NCBI RefSeq assembly: GCF_964204645.1
Contig: NC_134032.1
Location: 8,240,275-8,304,274 of the forward strand
Reading direction: 5' to 3'
From: Tubulanus polymorphus
Taxonomy: Eukaryota > Nemertea > Palaeonemertea > Tubulaniformes > Tubulanidae
Length of the DNA: 64,000 nt
Under the pieces are notes generated by a model, which was not told where the DNA came from, searched no databases, and saw only the letters and a list, made by a program, of their open reading frames with translations. Below are positions 13,785 to 36,740 of this stretch, in pieces. Both the position numbers and the translations under genes were made by a program. The stretch's first letter is position 1. The number at the start of each line of letters is the position of its first letter.

Positions 13785-14007
13785 TATCTAACTCTTAACG
13801 AGAGAAATCCCACAATAACGAAGCCAATATTGAAAAATTCTATATCAGAATGATTATATTTGAGGAGCGACGTTTTGGGTAAACGTCGCTCCTCAAATAT
13901 AATCATTCTGATATAGAATTTTTCAATCTTGGCTTCGTTATTGTGGGATTTCTCTCGTTATCATCATACACGGATATTGTGTATCTTCTCATCTTATCTA
14001 ACTCTTA
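13785..14007. mobile_element. Near-perfect 80-bp hairpin element with 13-bp flanking repeats
   Basis: Arms 13796-13875 and 13881-13960 are inverted copies with a single mismatch and a 5-nt loop (tgggt). A 34-nt tail (13961-13994) containing tacacggatattgtgta follows. The whole is bounded by the direct repeat tatctaactctta at 13785-13797 and 13995-14007, so the inserted unit is about 13798-13994. Its arm shares gtgggattt, then ttatc and gatatt, with the hairpin element at 46886-47029. Long, variable-length flanking repeats point to retrotransposition rather than cut-and-paste. Confidence 0.8.
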
Positions 14008-15204: not shown

Positions 15205-18200
15205 AAGTAAGCACATGGCCCACGTCCATAATGGGACCCATTCACTAAACCACCTCCACCCCACCTATATAGCGGGTCCTCGTCAATAAACCACACACCC
15301 TGCCTATATGGCCCCGCCCTACTAAACCTCCACGTACCCCGCTTACATAGCGAGGCCCCCTCACTAATACCACAACCACATCCACGCAGACTATACCAGG
15401 ACCTCTTTGTAATTAACCACAACCATATTCAAGCCCGTCTATACCGAAAACTCTTTAATCAACCATAACAACAACCACTTCCAAGCCCATATATACCGGG
15501 ACCCCTCTAGTTAACCATGACTACATCGAAGCCTGTCTATATCGGGACCTTTTTACTAGACCCAAAATCACAACCACATCCAAGCCAGTATATACCGGGA
15601 CCACTTTACTAAAACCACAACCTCGCACAACATCTATACCGGGAACTCTTCACTTAACCACCTCAACCCCACCTATAGGGTATCTCTTCACTAAAACCTC
15701 TTTACTAGAACCAAAACCACAACCACATCCAAGCCTGTCTGTACCGGTACCTCTTTACTTGAACCAAAACCACATCTGATCCTGTCTATACCGTGACCTC
15801 TTTACTAGCATCACAACGACATCCAAGTCTGTCTATACCGGGACCTCTTTACTAGAACCAAAACTACAACCACATCCAAGCCCATCTTTACCGGGACCTC
15901 TTTACTAGAACCAAAACCACAACCACATCCAAGCCCGTCTTTACCGGGACCTCTTTACTAGAACCAAAACCACAACCACATCCAATCCCGTCTTTACCGG
16001 GATCTCTTTACTAGAACCAAAACCACAACCACATCCAATCCCGTCTATACCGGGACCTCTCTACTAGAACCAAAACCACAACCACATCCAATCCCGTCTA
16101 TACCAGGACCTCTTTACTAGAACCAAAACTACAACCACATCCAAGCCCATCTTTACCGGGACCTCTTTACTAGAACCAAAACCACAACCAAATGCAAGCC
16201 CGTCTTTACCGGGACCTCTTTACTAGAACCAAATCTACAACCACATCCAAGCCCATCTTTACCGGGACCTCTCTACTAGAACCAAAACCACAACCACATC
16301 CACGACCGTTTATACCAGGACCTCATTACTAGAATCACAAGGACATCCAAGCCTGTCTATACCGGGACCTCTTCACTAAACCACCTGCACGTACCCCACC
16401 TTTAACGGTAACTCTTTGCTAAAACCACATGCACATCCAAGCCCATCTATACCGAGACCTCTTTACTATAACTGCAACCACATCCAAGCCCGTATATACC
16501 GGGACCCCTCTAGTTAACCACAACCACATCGAAGCCCATCTATACCGGGACCTCTTTACTAGACCCAAAACCACAACCACATCCAAGCCAGTATATACCA
16601 GGACCACTTTACTAAAACCACAACACAACGCCTTCTATACCGGGACGTCTTAATTTAACCATAACCACAACCACATCCAAGCCCGTCTATACCGGGACCT
16701 CTTTACTAGAACCAAAACCACAACCACATTCAAGCCAGTATATACCAGGACCATTTTACTAAAACGACAACACAACGCCCGTCTATACTGGGAATACTCT
16801 TCATTACCACCTCCACCCAACCTATAGGGTACCTCTTCACTGAAGCCTCTTTACTAGAACCACAACCAAATCCACGCCCGTCTTTACCGGGACCCCTCTA
16901 ATTAACCACAACCACATCGAAGCCCGTCTATAACGGGAACCCCATTAATCAAACCTCATACACAACCACTACCGCACTCGTTCATACCGGAACCTCTTTA
17001 ATAGAATCACAATGACATCCTAGCCCGTCTATACCAGGACCTCTTCACTAAACCACCTGCACGCACCCCGCTTATATAGCGGGACCTCATCAGTAATATG
17101 ACAACCACATTGACGCCCGTTCATACCGGGACCTTGTCACTAAACCACCACCTCGACCCCGCACCTATAACGGTTACTCTTTACTAAAACCACAACCACA
17201 TCCAAGTCTGTCTATACCGGGACCTCTTTACAAGAACCAAAACCACAACCACATCCGATCCTGTCTATACCTGGACCTCTCTACTAGAACCAAAACTACA
17301 ACCATATCCACGACCGTCTATACTGGGACCTCTTTACTAGAACCAAAACCACAACCACATCCGATCCTGTCTATACCAGGACCTCTCTACTAGAACCAAA
17401 ACTAAACCACATCCACGACCGTCTATACCGGGACCTCCTTACTAGAACCACAACCACATCCAAGCCCATCTATACCGGTACCTCTTTGATTAACCACAAC
17501 CACATCCAAGCCCGTATATGCCGGGACCTCTTTACTAGAACAGCAACCACATCCAAGCCGGTCTATACCGGGACCTCTTTACTAGAACCAAAACCACAAC
17601 CACATCCAAGCCCATCTATACCGGTACCTCTTTAATTAACCACAACCGCATCCAAGCCCGTATATGCCAGGACCTCTTTACTAGAACCAAAACCACAACC
17701 ACATCCAAGCCCGTATATACCGGGACCCCCCTAATTAACCACAACCACATCCAAGCCTGTCTATACCGGGAACCCCATTAATCAAACCTCATACACAACC
17801 ACAACCGCGCTCGTTTATACCAGAACCTCTTTACTAGAATCACAATGGCATCCAAGCCCGTCTTTACCAGGACCTCTTCACTTAACCACCTGCACGTACC
17901 CCGCTTATATAGCGGGACCTCATCAGTAATATGACAACCACATTAACGCCCGTCCATACCGGGATCTCGTCACTAAACCACCATCTCGACCCTGCGCCTA
18001 ACACGGTAACTCTTTACTAAAACCACAACCACATCCAAGCCCGTATATACCGGGACCTCTTTACTAGAACCAAAACCACAACCACATCCAAGCCCGTATA
18101 TACCGGGTCCACTTTTCTAAAACCATAACCATGCCCGCCTATACCGGGAACTCTTCACTTAACCGCCTCCATCCCACCTATAGGGTACCTCTTCCACTAA

Positions 18201-21200
18201 AGCATCTTTCCTAGAACCACAACCACATCCAAGCCCGTTTATACCGGGACCTCTTTACTAGAACCAAAACAACAACCACATCCGATCCTGTCTATACCGG
18301 GACTTCTCTACTAGAACCAAAACCACAACCACATCCAAGCTCATCTATACCGGGACCTCTTTACTAGAATCACAACGACATCCAAGTCCGTCTATACCGG
18401 GACCCCTTTACTAGAACCAAAACCACAACCACATCCAAGCCTGTCATTACCACGACCTCTTTACTAGAATCACAACGACATCCAAGTCTGTCTATACCGG
18501 GACCCCTTTACTAGAACCAAAACCACAACCACATCCAAGCCCGTCTTTACCACGACCTCTTTACTAGAACCAAAACAACAACCACATCCGATCCTGTCTA
18601 TACCGGGACTTCTCTACTAGAACCAAAACCACAACCACATCCAAGCTCATCTATACCGGGACCTCTTTACTAGAATCACAACGACATCCAAGTCCGTCTA
18701 TACCGGGACCCCTTTACTAGAACCAAAACCACAACCACATCCAAGCCCGTCTTTACCACGACCTCTTTACTAGAACCAAAACCACAACCACATCCAATCC
18801 TGTCTATACCGGGACCGCTCTACTAGAACCAAAACTACAACCACATCCACGACCGTCTATACCGGGACCTCTTTACTAGAACCAAAACCACAACCACATC
18901 CAAGCTCATCTATACCGGGACCTCTTTACTAGAATCACAACGACATCCAAGTCCCTCTATACCGGGACCCCTTTACTAGAACCAAAACCACAACCACATC
19001 CAAGCCCGTATATACCGCGTCCACTTTTCTAAAACCATAACCATGCCCGCCTATACCGGGTACTCTTCACTTAACCGCCTCCATCCCACCTATAGGGTAC
19101 CTCTTCCACTAAAGCATCTTACCTAGAACCACAACCACATCCAAGCCCGTTTATACCGGGACCTCTTTACTAGAACCAAAACAACAACCACATCCGATCC
19201 TGTCTATACCGGGACTTCTCTACTAGAACGAAAACCACAACCACATCCAAGCCCGTATATACCAGGACCTCTTTACTAGAACAGCAACCACACCCACATC
19301 CAAGCCCGTATATACCGGGAACTCTTCACTTAAAACCGCCTCCAGCCTCCACCCTACCTATACGGTACCTCTTCACTAAAGCCTCTTTCCTAGAACCACA
19401 ACCACATCCAAGCCCGTTTATACCGGGACCTCTTTACTAGAACCAAAACAACAACCACATCCGATCCTGTCTATACCGGGACTTTTCTACTAGAACGAAA
19501 ACCACAACCACATCCAAGCCCGTATATACCAGGACCTCTTTACTAGAACAGCAACCACACCCACATCCAAGCCCGTATATACCGGGAACTCTTCACTTAA
19601 AACCGCCTCCAGCCTCCACCCTACCTATACGGTACCTCTTCACTAAAGCCTCTTTCCTAGAACCACAACCACATCCAAGCCCGTTTATACCGGGACCTCT
19701 TTACTAATACCGCAACCACATCCAAGCCCGTCTATACCGGGACCTCCTTACTTGAACCAAAACCACAACAACATTCAAGCCAGTATATACCAGGACCACT
19801 TTACTAAAACCACAACACAACGCCCGTCTATACTGGGAACTCTTCACTTTACCACCTCCACCCCACCTATAGGGTACCTCTTCACTAAAGCCTCTTACTA
19901 GAACCACAACCACATCCAAGCCCATCTATACCGGTACCTCTTTAATTAACCACAACCACATCCAAGCCCGTATATGCCGGGACCTCTTTGCTAGAACAGC
20001 AACCACAACCACATCCAAGCCGGTCTATACCCGGACCTCTTTACTAGAACCAAAACCACAACCACATCCAAGCCCATCTATACCGGTACCTCTTTAATTA
20101 ACCACAACCATATCCAAGCGCGTATATGCCGCGACCACTTTACTAGAACCACAACCACATCCAAGCCCGTATATACCGGGATCCCTCTAATTAACCACAA
20201 CCACATCGAAGCCCGTCTATACCAGGAACCCCATTAATCAAACCTCATACACAACCACAACCGCGCTCGTTTATACCGAAACCTCTTTATAAGAATCACA
20301 ATGACATCCAAGCCCATCTATACCAGGACCTCTTCACTAAACCACCTGCACGTACCCCGCTTATATAGCGGGACCTCATCAGTAATATGACAACCACATT
20401 AACGCCTGTCCATACCGGGATCTCGTCACTAAACCACCATCTCGACCCTGCGCCTATAACGGTAACTCTTTACTAAAACCACAACCACATCCAAGCCCGT
20501 ATATACCGGGACCTCTTTACTAGAACCAAAACCACAACCACATCCAAGCCCGTATATACCGGGTCCACTTTTCTAAAACCATAACCATGCCCGCCTATAC
20601 CGGGAACTCTTCACTTAACCGCCTCCATCCCACCTATAGGGTACCTCTTCCACTAAAGCATCTTTCCTAGAACCACAACCACATCCAAGCCCGTTTATAC
20701 CGGGACCTCTTTACTAGAACCAAAACAACAACCACATCCGATCCTGTCTATACTGGGACTTCTCTACTAGAACCAAAACCACAACCACATCCAAGCTCAT
20801 CTATACCGGGACCTCTTTACTAGAATCACAACGACATCCAAGTCCGTCTATACCGGGACCCCTTTACTAGAACCAAAACCACAACCACATCCAAGCCCGT
20901 CTTTACCACGACCTCTTTACTAGAACCAAAACCACAACCACATCCGATCCTGTCTATACCGGGACCGCTCTACTAGAACCAAAACTACAACCACATCCAC
21001 GACCGTCTATACCGGGACCTCTTTACTAGAACAGCAACCACAACCACATCCGATCCTGTCTACACTGGGACCTCTTTACTAGAACCAAAACCACAACCAC
21101 ATCCACGACCGTCTATACCGGGACCTCTTTACTAGAACCAAAACCACAACCCCATCCAAGCCCGTTTATACCGGGACCTCTTTACTAGAACCAAAACCAC

Positions 21201-22655
21201 AACCACATCCGATCCTGTCTATACTGGGACCTCTTTACTAGAACCAAAACCACAACCACATTCGATCCTGTCTATACCGGGACCTCTCTACTATAACCAA
21301 AACTACAACCACATCCAAGCTTCTAAACCGTGACCTCTTTAAACCACCTGCACGTACCCCACCTATAACGGTAACTCTTTACTAAAACCATGTGCACATC
21401 CAAGCCCATCTATACCGAGACCTCTTTACTAGAACCGCAACCACATCCAAGCCCGTATATACCGGGACCCCTCTAGTTAATCACAACCACATCGAAGCCC
21501 GTCTATACCGGGACCTCTTTACTAGACCCAAAACCACAACCACATCCAAGCCAGTATATACCAGGACCACTTTACTAAAACCACAACATAACGCCTTCTA
21601 TACCGGGACGTCTTAAATTAACCATAACCACAACCACATCGAAGCCCGTCTATACCGGGACCTCTTTACTAGAACCAAAACCACAACCACATTCAAGCCA
21701 GTATATACCAGGACCACTTTACTAAAACGACAACACCACGCCCGTCTATACTGGGAACTCTTCACATTACCACCTCCACCCAACCTATAGGGTACCACTT
21801 CAGTAAAGCCTCTTTACTAGAACCACAACCACATCCAAGCCCGTCTATACCGGGACCTTTTTACTAGAACCACAACCACATCCAGGCTCGTCTATACCGG
21901 GACCTCTGTAATTAACCACAACCACATCCAAGCCCGCTTATACTGGGAACCCCTTTAATCAAACCTCATACACAACCACAACCGCGCTCGTTTATACTGG
22001 AACCTCTTTACTAGAATCGCAATGACATCCAAGCCCATCTATACCAGGACCTCTTCACTAAACCACCTGCAAGTACCCCGCTTATATAGCAGGACCTCAT
22101 CAGTAATATGACAACCACATTCACGCCCGTCCATACAGGGACCTCGTCACTAAACCGACCACCTCGACCCCGCACCTATAACGGTAACTCTTTACTAAAA
22201 CCACAACCACATCCAAGCCCGTATATACCGGGACCTCTTTACTTAGAACAGCAACCATTTACTAGAATCACAATTACATTCAAGCCCATCTATACCAGGA
22301 CCTCTTCACTAAACCATCTGCACGTACCCCCCTTATATAGCGGGACCTCATCAGTAATATGACAACCACATTCACGCCCGTCTATACCGGGACCTCTTTA
22401 ATCAACCATAACCACAACCACATCCTCCAAGCTCGTCTATACCGGCACCATTCTAATTAACCACATCCAAGCCCGTCTATACCGGGACCTCTTTAATTAA
22501 CCATAACCATAACCACTTCCAAGCCCGTATATACCGGGACCCCTCTAGTTATCCACAATCACATCGAAGCCCGTCTATACCGGGACCTCTTTACTAGACT
22601 CAAAACCACAACCATATCCAAGCCAGTATATACCGGGTCCACTTTACTAAAACGA
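15205..22655 (+). repeat. Degenerate 53-bp satellite array, about 7.4 kb
   Basis: Roughly 140 tandem monomers of nominal length 53 bp. A typical unit runs acctctttactagaacc, aaaaccacaaccacatcc, aagcccgtctataccggg. Shorter units (about 41-47 bp) lose the aaaacc block, and variant units read cccgcttatatagcggg or cacctatagggtacctc. The + strand is strongly A/C-rich and poor in G. Higher-order repeats are present: 18015-18215 recurs at 20472-20672, 16380-16800 recurs at 21340-21800, and a block near 19150-19380 is repeated at 19400-19630. The short open frames inside are by-products of the periodicity, not genes. Confidence 0.97.
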
Positions 22656-24106: not shown

Positions 24107-24300
24107 AACAAAAAGCACACTAGGAGCAGGCATATTTCACTAGGAGCAGACATATTCCACTAGGAGCAGGCAATATTTCACTAGGAGCAAACGTAATCCA
24201 CTGGTATATTCCACTAGGAGCAGGCATATCTCACTAGGGGCAGACGTAATTTACAAGGTGCAGACATATTCCACTAGGAGCAGGTATATTTCACTATCGT
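24107..24300 (+). repeat. 20-bp minisatellite (cactaggagcaggcatattc), first site
   Basis: About nine imperfect units of roughly 20 bp built on ttccactaggagcagacata. The same unit forms a larger array at 29095-29500, 5 kb away. Confidence 0.9.
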
Positions 24301-24942: not shown

Positions 24943-25098
<156 letters not shown>

Positions 25099-25200
25099 GA
25101 ATTGACGAAAGAAGACGTTCGTGAAATCTATATAACTTGAAACATTGTTTCCATGATTAATTGAACTGTAATTGGGAGGATCGTCTGATTGGTCGACGCA

Positions 25201-26145
25201 ATGGCTGCAACTTCAGTTCCTCAGAACCGCACAAATCCGTCTAATCTTTTTACAGCCTTAATACTGTCTGCAACTACGCTAAATGGAACTTATCTTTGGT
25301 TTTACCTCGTATTCGCCAGTCTTTGTTTTATTCTCGGATTCAACGGTAATCTCCTAATCGTGATAGTGATGCTGCGACGTAAACTATGGCGACGTTCTTT
25401 CAGTCGTATGTTCGTTCAACTAGCCGTCTGCGACACTTTGGTTCTCATCTGTTACTTAGTGAAATATATCAACGTTATGTCTTATTCGTTCTTCGGAAGG
25501 AAATTATTAGTAAAACCATCAACGCGAATCCACTGTGCATGTTTTGAGTATTTTGTAGTAGTTAGTCTTTCGAGCAGTCCGTGGATGCTGGTCCTCGTAG
25601 CTGCCGAGCGAATGTGTGTGGTTTGTTTTCCGTTTAGGGGTCCTCGTTTCTGGAGCCCGAGTACCGCTTCTAAACTCTGTTTCTGCGTGCTATGCTTCCT
25701 AGCGCTGAGTTATAGTTATTTACTCGGGACTGTCGATGTTATCGACAACAGTTGCATCGCTAGAAATCTGCCCACATTCATTAAGCCATTGCTATCGTCT
25801 ATTCTCGTCTCTATAGGTCCGTTTGTATTGTTAGCTATCATGTCCGCAATAACTTCGTTCGCTTTACTCAGAAAAAAAGGTAAATCAGAAACAAACCGAG
25901 CATCGAAATACTCAAACCAGGTAACCGTGTTGGTTCTGTTTCTGTGCATGTTCTTTATGGTTATAACATTCCCCGCTGCTTTATTGAGTCCTTTTAGCTG
26001 GACAAATTTAAAATTGAGAAATATCTTCGCTGCCCTCTTCGATATTGTAATGATAAATTATTCGTTCAATCTCTACTTATATCTGATGACGGGAAAAGAA
26101 ATCAAAAGGGAATTGCGGAATTTGATCTTCAAAAACCCGTCTTGA
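25201..26145 (+). CDS. Class A (rhodopsin-like) G protein-coupled receptor, intronless
   Basis: Encodes a 314-residue plasma-membrane receptor with seven hydrophobic segments. The ATG at 25201 was chosen because the frame upstream opens only with a TTG. N-glycosylation sites NRT and NGT lie before TM1. Family marks: GFNGNLL in TM1 (Asn 1.50), LAVCD in TM2 (Asp 2.50), a Cys at the top of TM3 (HCACFEYF) with a partner before TM5 (DNSCIAR), AERMC in place of DRY after TM3, FMVITFP in TM6 in place of CWxP, and NYSFNLYLYLMTGKEIKREL for TM7 and helix 8, where NPxxY has become NLYLY. The tryptophan usual in TM4 is not seen. The pattern fits the divergent peptide-receptor-like GPCRs that are expanded in aquatic invertebrates. 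The ligand is unknown. Confidence 0.9.
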   Translation: MAATSVPQNRTNPSNLFTALILSATTLNGTYLWFYLVFASLCFILGFNGNLLIVIVMLRRKLWRRSFSRMFVQLAVCDTLVLICYLVKYINVMSYSFFGRKLLVKPSTRIHCACFEYFVVVSLSSSPWMLVLVAAERMCVVCFPFRGPRFWSPSTASKLCFCVLCFLALSYSYLLGTVDVIDNSCIARNLPTFIKPLLSSILVSIGPFVLLAIMSAITSFALLRKKGKSETNRASKYSNQVTVLVLFLCMFFMVITFPAALLSPFSWTNLKLRNIFAALFDIVMINYSFNLYLYLMTGKEIKRELRNLIFKNPS

Positions 26146-29094: not shown

Positions 29095-29500
29095 TAAGAA
29101 GTAGATGTATTCCACTAGGAGCAGACGTATTTCACTAGTAAATGTATTTCACTCGGAGTAGACATATTCCACTAGGAGCAGACGCATTCCACTAGGAGCA
29201 GACGTATTTCACTCGGAGTAGACATTTTTCACTCGGAGTAGACATATTTCACTAGGAGCAGACATATTCCACTAGGAGCAGACGTATTTCACTAAGATTA
29301 GATGTATTTCACTAGCAGACATATTTCACTAGGAGTAGCCATATTCCACCATGGCCACGCACATTCCATTGAGATTAGACAAATTCGCGCCTGGCAACAT
29401 ACGTATTTCACTAGGAGTAGACGTAATTCGCAACGAGCAGGCATATTTCACTAGATGTATTCCACTAGGGTCAGGCATATTCAGACATTCCACTAGAAGC
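29095..29500 (+). repeat. 20-bp minisatellite (cactaggagcagacgtattt), second site
   Basis: About 18 imperfect units of the sequence seen at 24107-24300, with variants cactcggagtagacat and truncated units. Confidence 0.9.
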
Positions 29501-35829: not shown

Positions 35830-36740
35830 GTCAACCTGCCCTGTGAGGCTAGTTTAACTACTGCAGTTTGAGTTCTGCAGATCACCTGCCCTGAGAGGCC
35901 AGTTCAACTGCTGCAGTTTGACTTCAGATATCAACCTGCCCTGAGAGGCCAGTTCAACTGCTGCAGATTGACTTCAGATATCAACCTGCCCTGAGAGGCC
36001 AGTTCAACTGCTGCAGATTGACTTTCGATGTCAACCTGCCCTGAGAGGCCAGTTCAACTGCTGCAGTTTGACTTCAGATATCAACCTGCCCTGAGAGGCC
36101 AGTTCAGCTGCTGCAGATTGACTTCCGATATCAACCTGCCCTGAGAGGCCAGTTCAACTGCTGCAGTTTGACTTCAGATATCAACCTGCCCTGAGAGGCC
36201 AGTTCAACTGCTGCAGATTGACTTCCGATGTCAACCTGCCCTGAGAGGCCACTTTCATTCTGCAGAAATCAACCTGCCCTGAGAGGCCAGTTCAACTGCT
36301 GCAGATTGACTTCCGATGTCAACCTGCCCTGAGGCCAGTTTTGATTCTGCAGAAATCAACCTGCCCTGAGAGGCCAGTTTTGTTCTGCAGAAATCAACCT
36401 GCCCTGAGAGGCCAGTTCAACTGCTGCAGATTGATTTCCGATATCAACCTGCCCTGAGAGGCCAGTTTAACTGCTGCAGTTTTAGTTCTGATATCAACCT
36501 GCCCTGAGGCCAGTTTTGATTCTGCAGAAATCAACCTGCCCTGAGAGGCCAGTTCAACTGCTGCAGTTTGACTTCCGATATCAACCTGCCCTGAGAGGCC
36601 AGTTCAACTGCTGCAGTTTGACTTCCGATATCAACCTGCCCTGAGAGGCCAGTTTCACTCTGGAGATATCACCTGCCCTGAGAGGCTAGTTTAAACTGCT
36701 GCAGTTTGACTTCCGATATCAACCTACCCTGAGGGGCCAT
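35830..36740 (+). repeat. 50-bp tandem array with a PstI site in each unit
   Basis: About 19 units of tcaacctgccctgagaggcc, agttcaactgctgcag, then ttgacttc(a/c)gata. Several units are shortened to about 34 bp (ccctgaggccagttttgattctgcag). A single inverted pair, cctgccctgagaagccat and ggcctcttagggcagg at 37167-37203, carries the same core outside the array and may be its source element. Confidence 0.95.

Follow-up and report, generated by a model that had tools for sequence, protein, structure and literature searches.

Penelope of Drosophila virilis has terminal repeats in inverted orientation together with a short additional tail, as does the insertion described here, the likeness being one of description and not of sequence. 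A fuller comparison is offered by Adineta vaga, in which Penelope elements likewise show inverted pLTRs with palindromes at the joint. There, an optional tail of 31 bp is found on one of the inverted pLTRs (34 nt in our case), target-site duplications (TSDs) measure 8-10 bp in the cases described (7-14 bp here), and copy number is low, in contrast to the hundreds of sites reported below (PMC3846280). For palindromes at inverted junctions, that 2013 study considers the best interpretation to be self-priming, a route that the relevant passages leave unproven (PMC3846280), whereas the joints analysed here favour two priming events. A second point of reference is the Poseidon element of Anolis carolinensis (PAc; Penelope/Poseidon clade), whose purified protein was shown in vitro to cleave both strands of the target and to extend them; reverse transcription starts at two internal sites, which form the boundaries of the tail (PMC11167929). 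The equivalent assignment of our tail rests on genomic ends, whereas that for PAc was shown in vitro. PAc also has a stem-loop, with a weakly supported counterpart here, and a hammerhead motif upstream of its start sites, where we find a hammerhead-like one (PMC11167929). No difference in start site between the strands was seen for PAc in vitro, whereas genomic insertions in our family pair one site with the other (PMC11167929). A pile-up of cDNA ends at the RNA 5' end, as seen here, found no mention in the portions of the PAc report consulted, which also describe the further steps of insertion in this 2024 in vitro system as yet to be validated (PMC11167929).

The locus under study lies in the window, by which we mean the whole stretch of 64,000 nucleotides that was analysed (contig C8:8240275-8304274). 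Two arms of 80 nt, at 13796-13875 and 13881-13960, are 99% complementary, with one mismatch, and are spaced by 5 nt; a perfect 13-bp repeat, TATCTAACTCTTA, brackets them at 13785-13797 and 13995-14007. The preliminary description, of a near-perfect 80-bp hairpin with a 5-nt loop, a 34-nt tail and 13-bp flanking repeats, was accurate in all of these respects. The first two bases of the left arm (TA, 13796-13797) double as the end of the left repeat, so that the inserted DNA is 13798-13994 (197 bp). Positions within the element are given on a ruler, the reference, which is one real copy (L027). On this ruler, the insertion consists of an inverted copy (13798-13875, minus strand) that runs from about 580 at its outer end, without the tail, to 501 at its inner end; a 5-nt filler, TGGGT (13876-13880), unlike either upstream continuation; and a sense copy (13881-13994, plus strand) that runs from 501 to an outer end at 614. 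The tail (13961-13994, plus strand) is found on one side alone and contains a small stem-loop (13966-13984, plus strand; 7 bp, 5-nt loop, -5.2 kcal/mol), although 13 of 200 shuffled sequences fold equally well (z -1.7). The 13-bp repeat fits a TSD, since flanking repeats specific to their locus are present at 25 of the 28 related inverted insertions.

The window also contains several repeat arrays. A 7-kb array of a diverged unit of about 53 bp (15696-22653) shows very strong strand asymmetry, with a GC skew of about -0.5 between 16 and 22 kb. Two separate arrays, at 24118-24296 and 29100-29454, seemingly have in common a 20-bp unit around CACTAGGAGC, and a minisatellite at 35831-36739 has higher-order periods of 50, 100 and 150 bp. 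An open frame of 318 aa (25189-26145) matches rhodopsin-type GPCRs (7tm_1, E 4.6e-11) and is shortly preceded by a 155-bp TA run (24944-25098).

The hairpin family has hundreds of sites in the genome (267.8 Mb in 77 contigs). With 40 of 822 candidates scored, the 223-bp hairpin query gave at least 92 matches; arm plus tail gave at least 63, again from 40 of 822. Genome-wide counts of 26-mers, made with up to two mismatches unless stated and with a reversed control that was 0 throughout, placed the tail (reference 580-605) at 415 sites, the arm (549-574) at 451, the junction of arm and tail at 289, and the sequence at 509-534 at 304. We examined 39 distinct loci, comprising the window, L009-L028 and L037-L056 minus two duplicates; L009-L028 were picked as the best matches to the hairpin or to its arm and tail, and L037-L056 solely by an exact arm 26-mer. 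Under the latter selection, 15 of 20 loci held inverted insertions. At 13 of the 39 (L018-L022, L025-L027, L043 and L052-L055) there was no simple inverted pair. With one further insertion from L029, the total came to 28 inverted insertions, measuring 158-266 bp except for one of 508. The structure of 23 was resolved by a joint script, which left out L023a, L023b, L039, L044 and L050. It is unlikely that the hairpin or its relatives are an assembly artefact, because many separate loci repeat the design with different joints and flanks.

To judge from its longer relatives, the window hairpin is an end fragment of an endonuclease-bearing Penelope-like element (PLE), since two copies continue upstream into GIY-YIG and reverse transcriptase (RT)-like ORFs. 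These copies, L027 and L020, have 1.6 kb in common at 90% identity, upstream of and through the arm, and in both the same arm and tail are contiguous with the endonuclease (EN) and RT-like ORFs on the same strand. The EN assignment derives from an L027 ORF that matches PF01541 (E 1.1e-5, 26 bits against a cut-off of 22.6). A PLE had been named as one candidate in the preliminary description, and this identification is borne out. The RVT_1 match (E 0.012), on a broken RT-like fragment, falls under the Pfam cut-off. The RVT_1 profile gave no match to another RT-like fragment; FVDD and YGLPKIHK in the RT-like ORFs are presumably RT motifs. Genome searches with the EN and RT pieces listed 150 places each, among 948 and 368 candidates, respectively. 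Downstream of 11 of the 150 listed EN places, on the same strand and within 2.5 kb, lies a 26-mer from the TATA region of the element, at 255-382 bp in 8 cases; none of the 150 has it upstream or on the opposite strand within that distance. Open frames of 817 aa and of 828-841 aa match both the RT and the EN queries and form sister groups about 80-82% and 68-77% identical, respectively, so the genome potentially contains intact relatives of the element. Many PLE frames of 817-841 aa are found genome-wide, some of them paired adjacent or inverted (e.g., within C5:7313561-7320576). The window copy itself lacks the TATA region and, having no promoter, should therefore be dead on arrival; it is an ordinary, short, probably dead insertion of a PLE.

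Directly upstream of the arm, many copies carry a motif at reference 474-504 that consists of CTGATGA, a 7-bp stem and GAAAC, with one extra U before the stem, and which resembles the hammerhead core. The window copy lacks it because both arms stop at reference 501. No Rfam family reached gathering level in the window, and searches with the Rfam hammerhead models were negative for 11 loci (E up to 1) and for 181 nt of L021 (E up to 10), for which reason the motif is termed no more than hammerhead-like here. Most PLE hammerheads are minimal and lack helix III (PMC6155905, PMC7761336), and by analogy a missing helix III may explain why Rfam missed the motif. In L021, the 148-nt pLTR stretch folded no more stably than shuffled sequences did (z 0.04). 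A retrozyme with a canonical type I hammerhead was considered and rejected, given the lack of an Rfam match and the position of the unit at the end of an EN-bearing element. Separately, tandem arrays of the hammerhead-like core with a period of about 25-26 bp (GCCTGATGATGGCTAACAGTTGTT..) occur in or beside PLE insertions at L022, L025 (e.g., 2593-2907) and L048 (e.g., 1094-1367); template slippage on the stem is our guess as to their origin.

The outer ends of the inverted insertions fall at two sites. In the 23 resolved copies, one end lies at reference 606-614 (site A; 614 in 19 of 23) and the other at 575-589 (site B), about 34 nt upstream of A, with the limit that all 23 are A/B by selection, because the script demands one end of each kind. 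The tail is the stretch from B to A and is one-sided in the resolved inverted copies. Overall, an end of the untailed arm near site B is seen in 24 of the 28 insertions, 23 by script and one, L023a, by eye and with a small deletion; at the remaining four (L023b, L039, L044 and L050) one outer end lies elsewhere than A or B. None of the 28 has A/A or B/B ends, and no facing pair within 1.5 kb occurs among the 100 exact tails listed (of 415). Locus-specific flanking repeats, scored at 7 or more with at most two mismatches, accompany 25 of the 28; they are 7-14 bp long, and 10-14 bp in 23 of the 25. The same criterion gave a repeat in 15 of 756 (2%) pairs of left and right flanks drawn from different loci. 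Flanking repeats were absent among the 28 at L023b, L044 and L050; L039 has a 14-bp TSD despite its displaced end. These results agree with the RNA route, by target-primed insertion, that had been suggested from the 13-bp repeat, in that TSD length is variable. The preliminary description had also considered that other copies might show no flanking duplication, and once tabulated this proved not to be the rule.

Of 46 inner ends, 14 lie at reference 465-470, 7 at 471-476 and only 1 upstream of 465; against a flat spread over 465-580, the concentration at 465-470 has a binomial p of 5e-8, for a stretch that was picked post hoc. A TATA box, TATAAATA, starts at reference 436, and the A of TCAGT, at which the long arms of L041, L049 and L056 terminate exactly, is position 467. 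The resulting distance of about 31 nt matches the usual spacing from a TATA box to a transcription start. We infer, from sequence, that the pile-up probably reflects cDNA running off the 5' end of an RNA that starts near 467, an inferred start that L013 overshoots by 16 nt. Counts of 26-mers drop in the same region, from 290 at reference 488-513 to 60 at 428-453, in the TATA region, even with three mismatches allowed for the latter, although faster divergence upstream of 467 may be part of the cause. Among 100 listed places of the 488-513 26-mer there are 17 opposed neighbour pairs within 5 kb, of which 16 are spaced by 51-85 nt; by arithmetic, two run-off ends without filler predict 68 nt. 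The seventeenth pair, 2385 nt apart with an RT match between (C8:2321421-2323806), may be an inverted insertion whose cDNA is much longer. If the hammerhead-like fold were a structural barrier, the enzyme should instead halt on its 3' side, which it meets first.

Joint gaps were computed after trimming to five matching columns, and their values depend on this rule. Across the resolved 23, they range from -2 to +336 nt: 2 are negative (1-2 nt shared), 5 are zero, 11 are 2-13 nt and 5 are 26 nt or more. In the two negative-gap copies, L009 and L014, the BLAST pieces before trimming have 6 and 8 nt in common. Ten of the 23 have the untailed arm extending further upstream and ten the tailed one; the arms of the remaining 3, which include the window copy, are equal within 5 nt. 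Five unequal copies are clean (L013, L038, L041, L049 and L056), with the untailed arm reaching 53-92 nt further upstream; the others listed by the script are L012 and L047 (inner deletion), L029b and L048 (complex loops) and L046 (10 nt only). In each of the five, each arm carries sequence missing from the other, so that, barring a later deletion of the centre, neither can have been made from the other by fold-back. Substitutions between the arms of one insertion amount to 32 of 1231 positions (2.6%, 18 insertions), against 3.0% between insertions, and 587 of 10,000 shuffles gave a value no higher than the observed 2.6%; partner arms thus hardly resemble each other more than arms from separate insertions do, which fits one template RNA or two alike. 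With gaps counted, arm divergence is 5.1% within and 5.3% between insertions, and 1857 of 5000 shuffles were as low. Variants present in more than one insertion occupied one arm only in 11 cases and both arms in 3, and several of them look like recurrent changes. Matches to miRNA models under gathering score occur at the palindromic joints of L023 (3075-3149) and L028 (3141-3207), which we read as a by-product of the hairpins; a mir-315 match at L019 (4870-4945, minus strand; 49.2 bits, E 4.5e-6) is likewise below its gathering score of 63 and would, given the range of this family, point to a protostome host.

Together, these observations make it probable that the palindromes arise by PLE insertion with two cDNAs, in which both cut strands prime, at A and B, and the products are joined head to head. 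The enzyme of the element would make a staggered cut in the target, leaving 3' overhangs of about 13 nt, and both overhangs would serve as primers for reverse transcription within the element RNA, at A for one strand and at B for the other. Each cDNA would then head for the RNA 5' end, often running off at the transcription start in the manner of strong-stop DNA, after which host repair would join the two cDNA ends head to head, in many cases adding a few bases of filler, and the TSD would result from gap filling. In the window copy, 13881-13994 would be the A-primed cDNA, 13798-13875 the B-primed one and TGGGT their joint; both cDNAs would have stopped at the same place, reference 501, which would account for an almost perfect palindrome. 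On this reading, the genomic palindromes would be the product of the two-strand activity seen in vitro for the Anolis PLE. The chances are about even that, beyond this, target-primed reverse transcription in PLE insertion is symmetric, with its start sites divided between the strands, and that palindromes are its normal product and not an accident. The portions of the literature searched held no statement of the two-cDNA reading for PLE palindromes, which may still be in print.

Considered alone, the window copy fits two cDNAs or a fold-back alike, because its arms end at the same place, and its near-perfect arms and 5-nt loop speak for the snap-back put forward in the preliminary description. 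Such an event, in which the 3' end of an A-primed cDNA turns back to prime a copy of that cDNA, the hairpin being resolved later, is also the self-priming favoured for palindromes at inverted junctions in PMC3846280, and in the 10 of 23 resolved copies whose untailed arm lies wholly within the tailed one, a fold-back that stopped at B would give the same result. A self-copy, however, should pass through the tail into the target strand, whereas the untailed arm halts near B in 24 of 28; the spacing of the arms, at 2-13 nt in 11 of 23 and 26 nt or more in 5, also speaks against it. An untailed arm that reaches 53-92 nt further upstream is not given by a single snap-back, which leads us to two cDNAs, and in general the regularities of the family (A with B, ends near one base, arms unequal in both directions) favour two priming events. 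We therefore regard the snap-back as probably wrong, a minor possibility for the family as a whole. Asymmetric deletions at the centre of a palindrome could, on the other hand, mimic unequal arms. Long palindromes are unstable, and if both cDNAs ran off the RNA 5' end to give a symmetric palindrome, later asymmetric replication deletions around its centre would leave unequal arms and altered loops; some copies (L028, L045 and L046) do retain both arms to about 465-475. A loss that spans the centre should often trim both arms, yet the 466-467 end is intact on one arm, with the other cut, in L038, L041, L048, L049 and L056, and trimmed joints share sequence in just 2 of 23 (1-2 nt; 6 and 8 nt untrimmed). 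This sequence of events appears improbable, slightly more so than the snap-back.

Twin priming of the LINE type, in which the second strand primes at an arbitrary internal position in the same RNA, would likewise produce TSDs and inverted segments. There, the inverted segment is located upstream and barely overlaps the other one, whereas here the two overlap widely in most copies and both start at preferred sites; the associated ORF, moreover, carries a GIY-YIG endonuclease, and we consider this origin very unlikely. The inverted repeats and the TSD would equally suit a MITE or foldback DNA transposon with long terminal inverted repeats, but the outer ends are unlike (A tailed, B untailed), TSD length is not fixed, the inner structure differs among copies and the sequence continues into an EN/RT-like element, which leaves such an element scarcely credible.

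Insertion by two cDNAs, one from each cut strand, thus remains our preferred reading, and it is the joint statistics of the whole family that form the interesting part and that make the question of mechanism testable. With hundreds of short insertions in one genome, statistics of their end points can separate fold-back from priming on two strands, and can also place the 5' end of the RNA. For the host, the consequence is a set of hairpin-forming, probably inert insertions.
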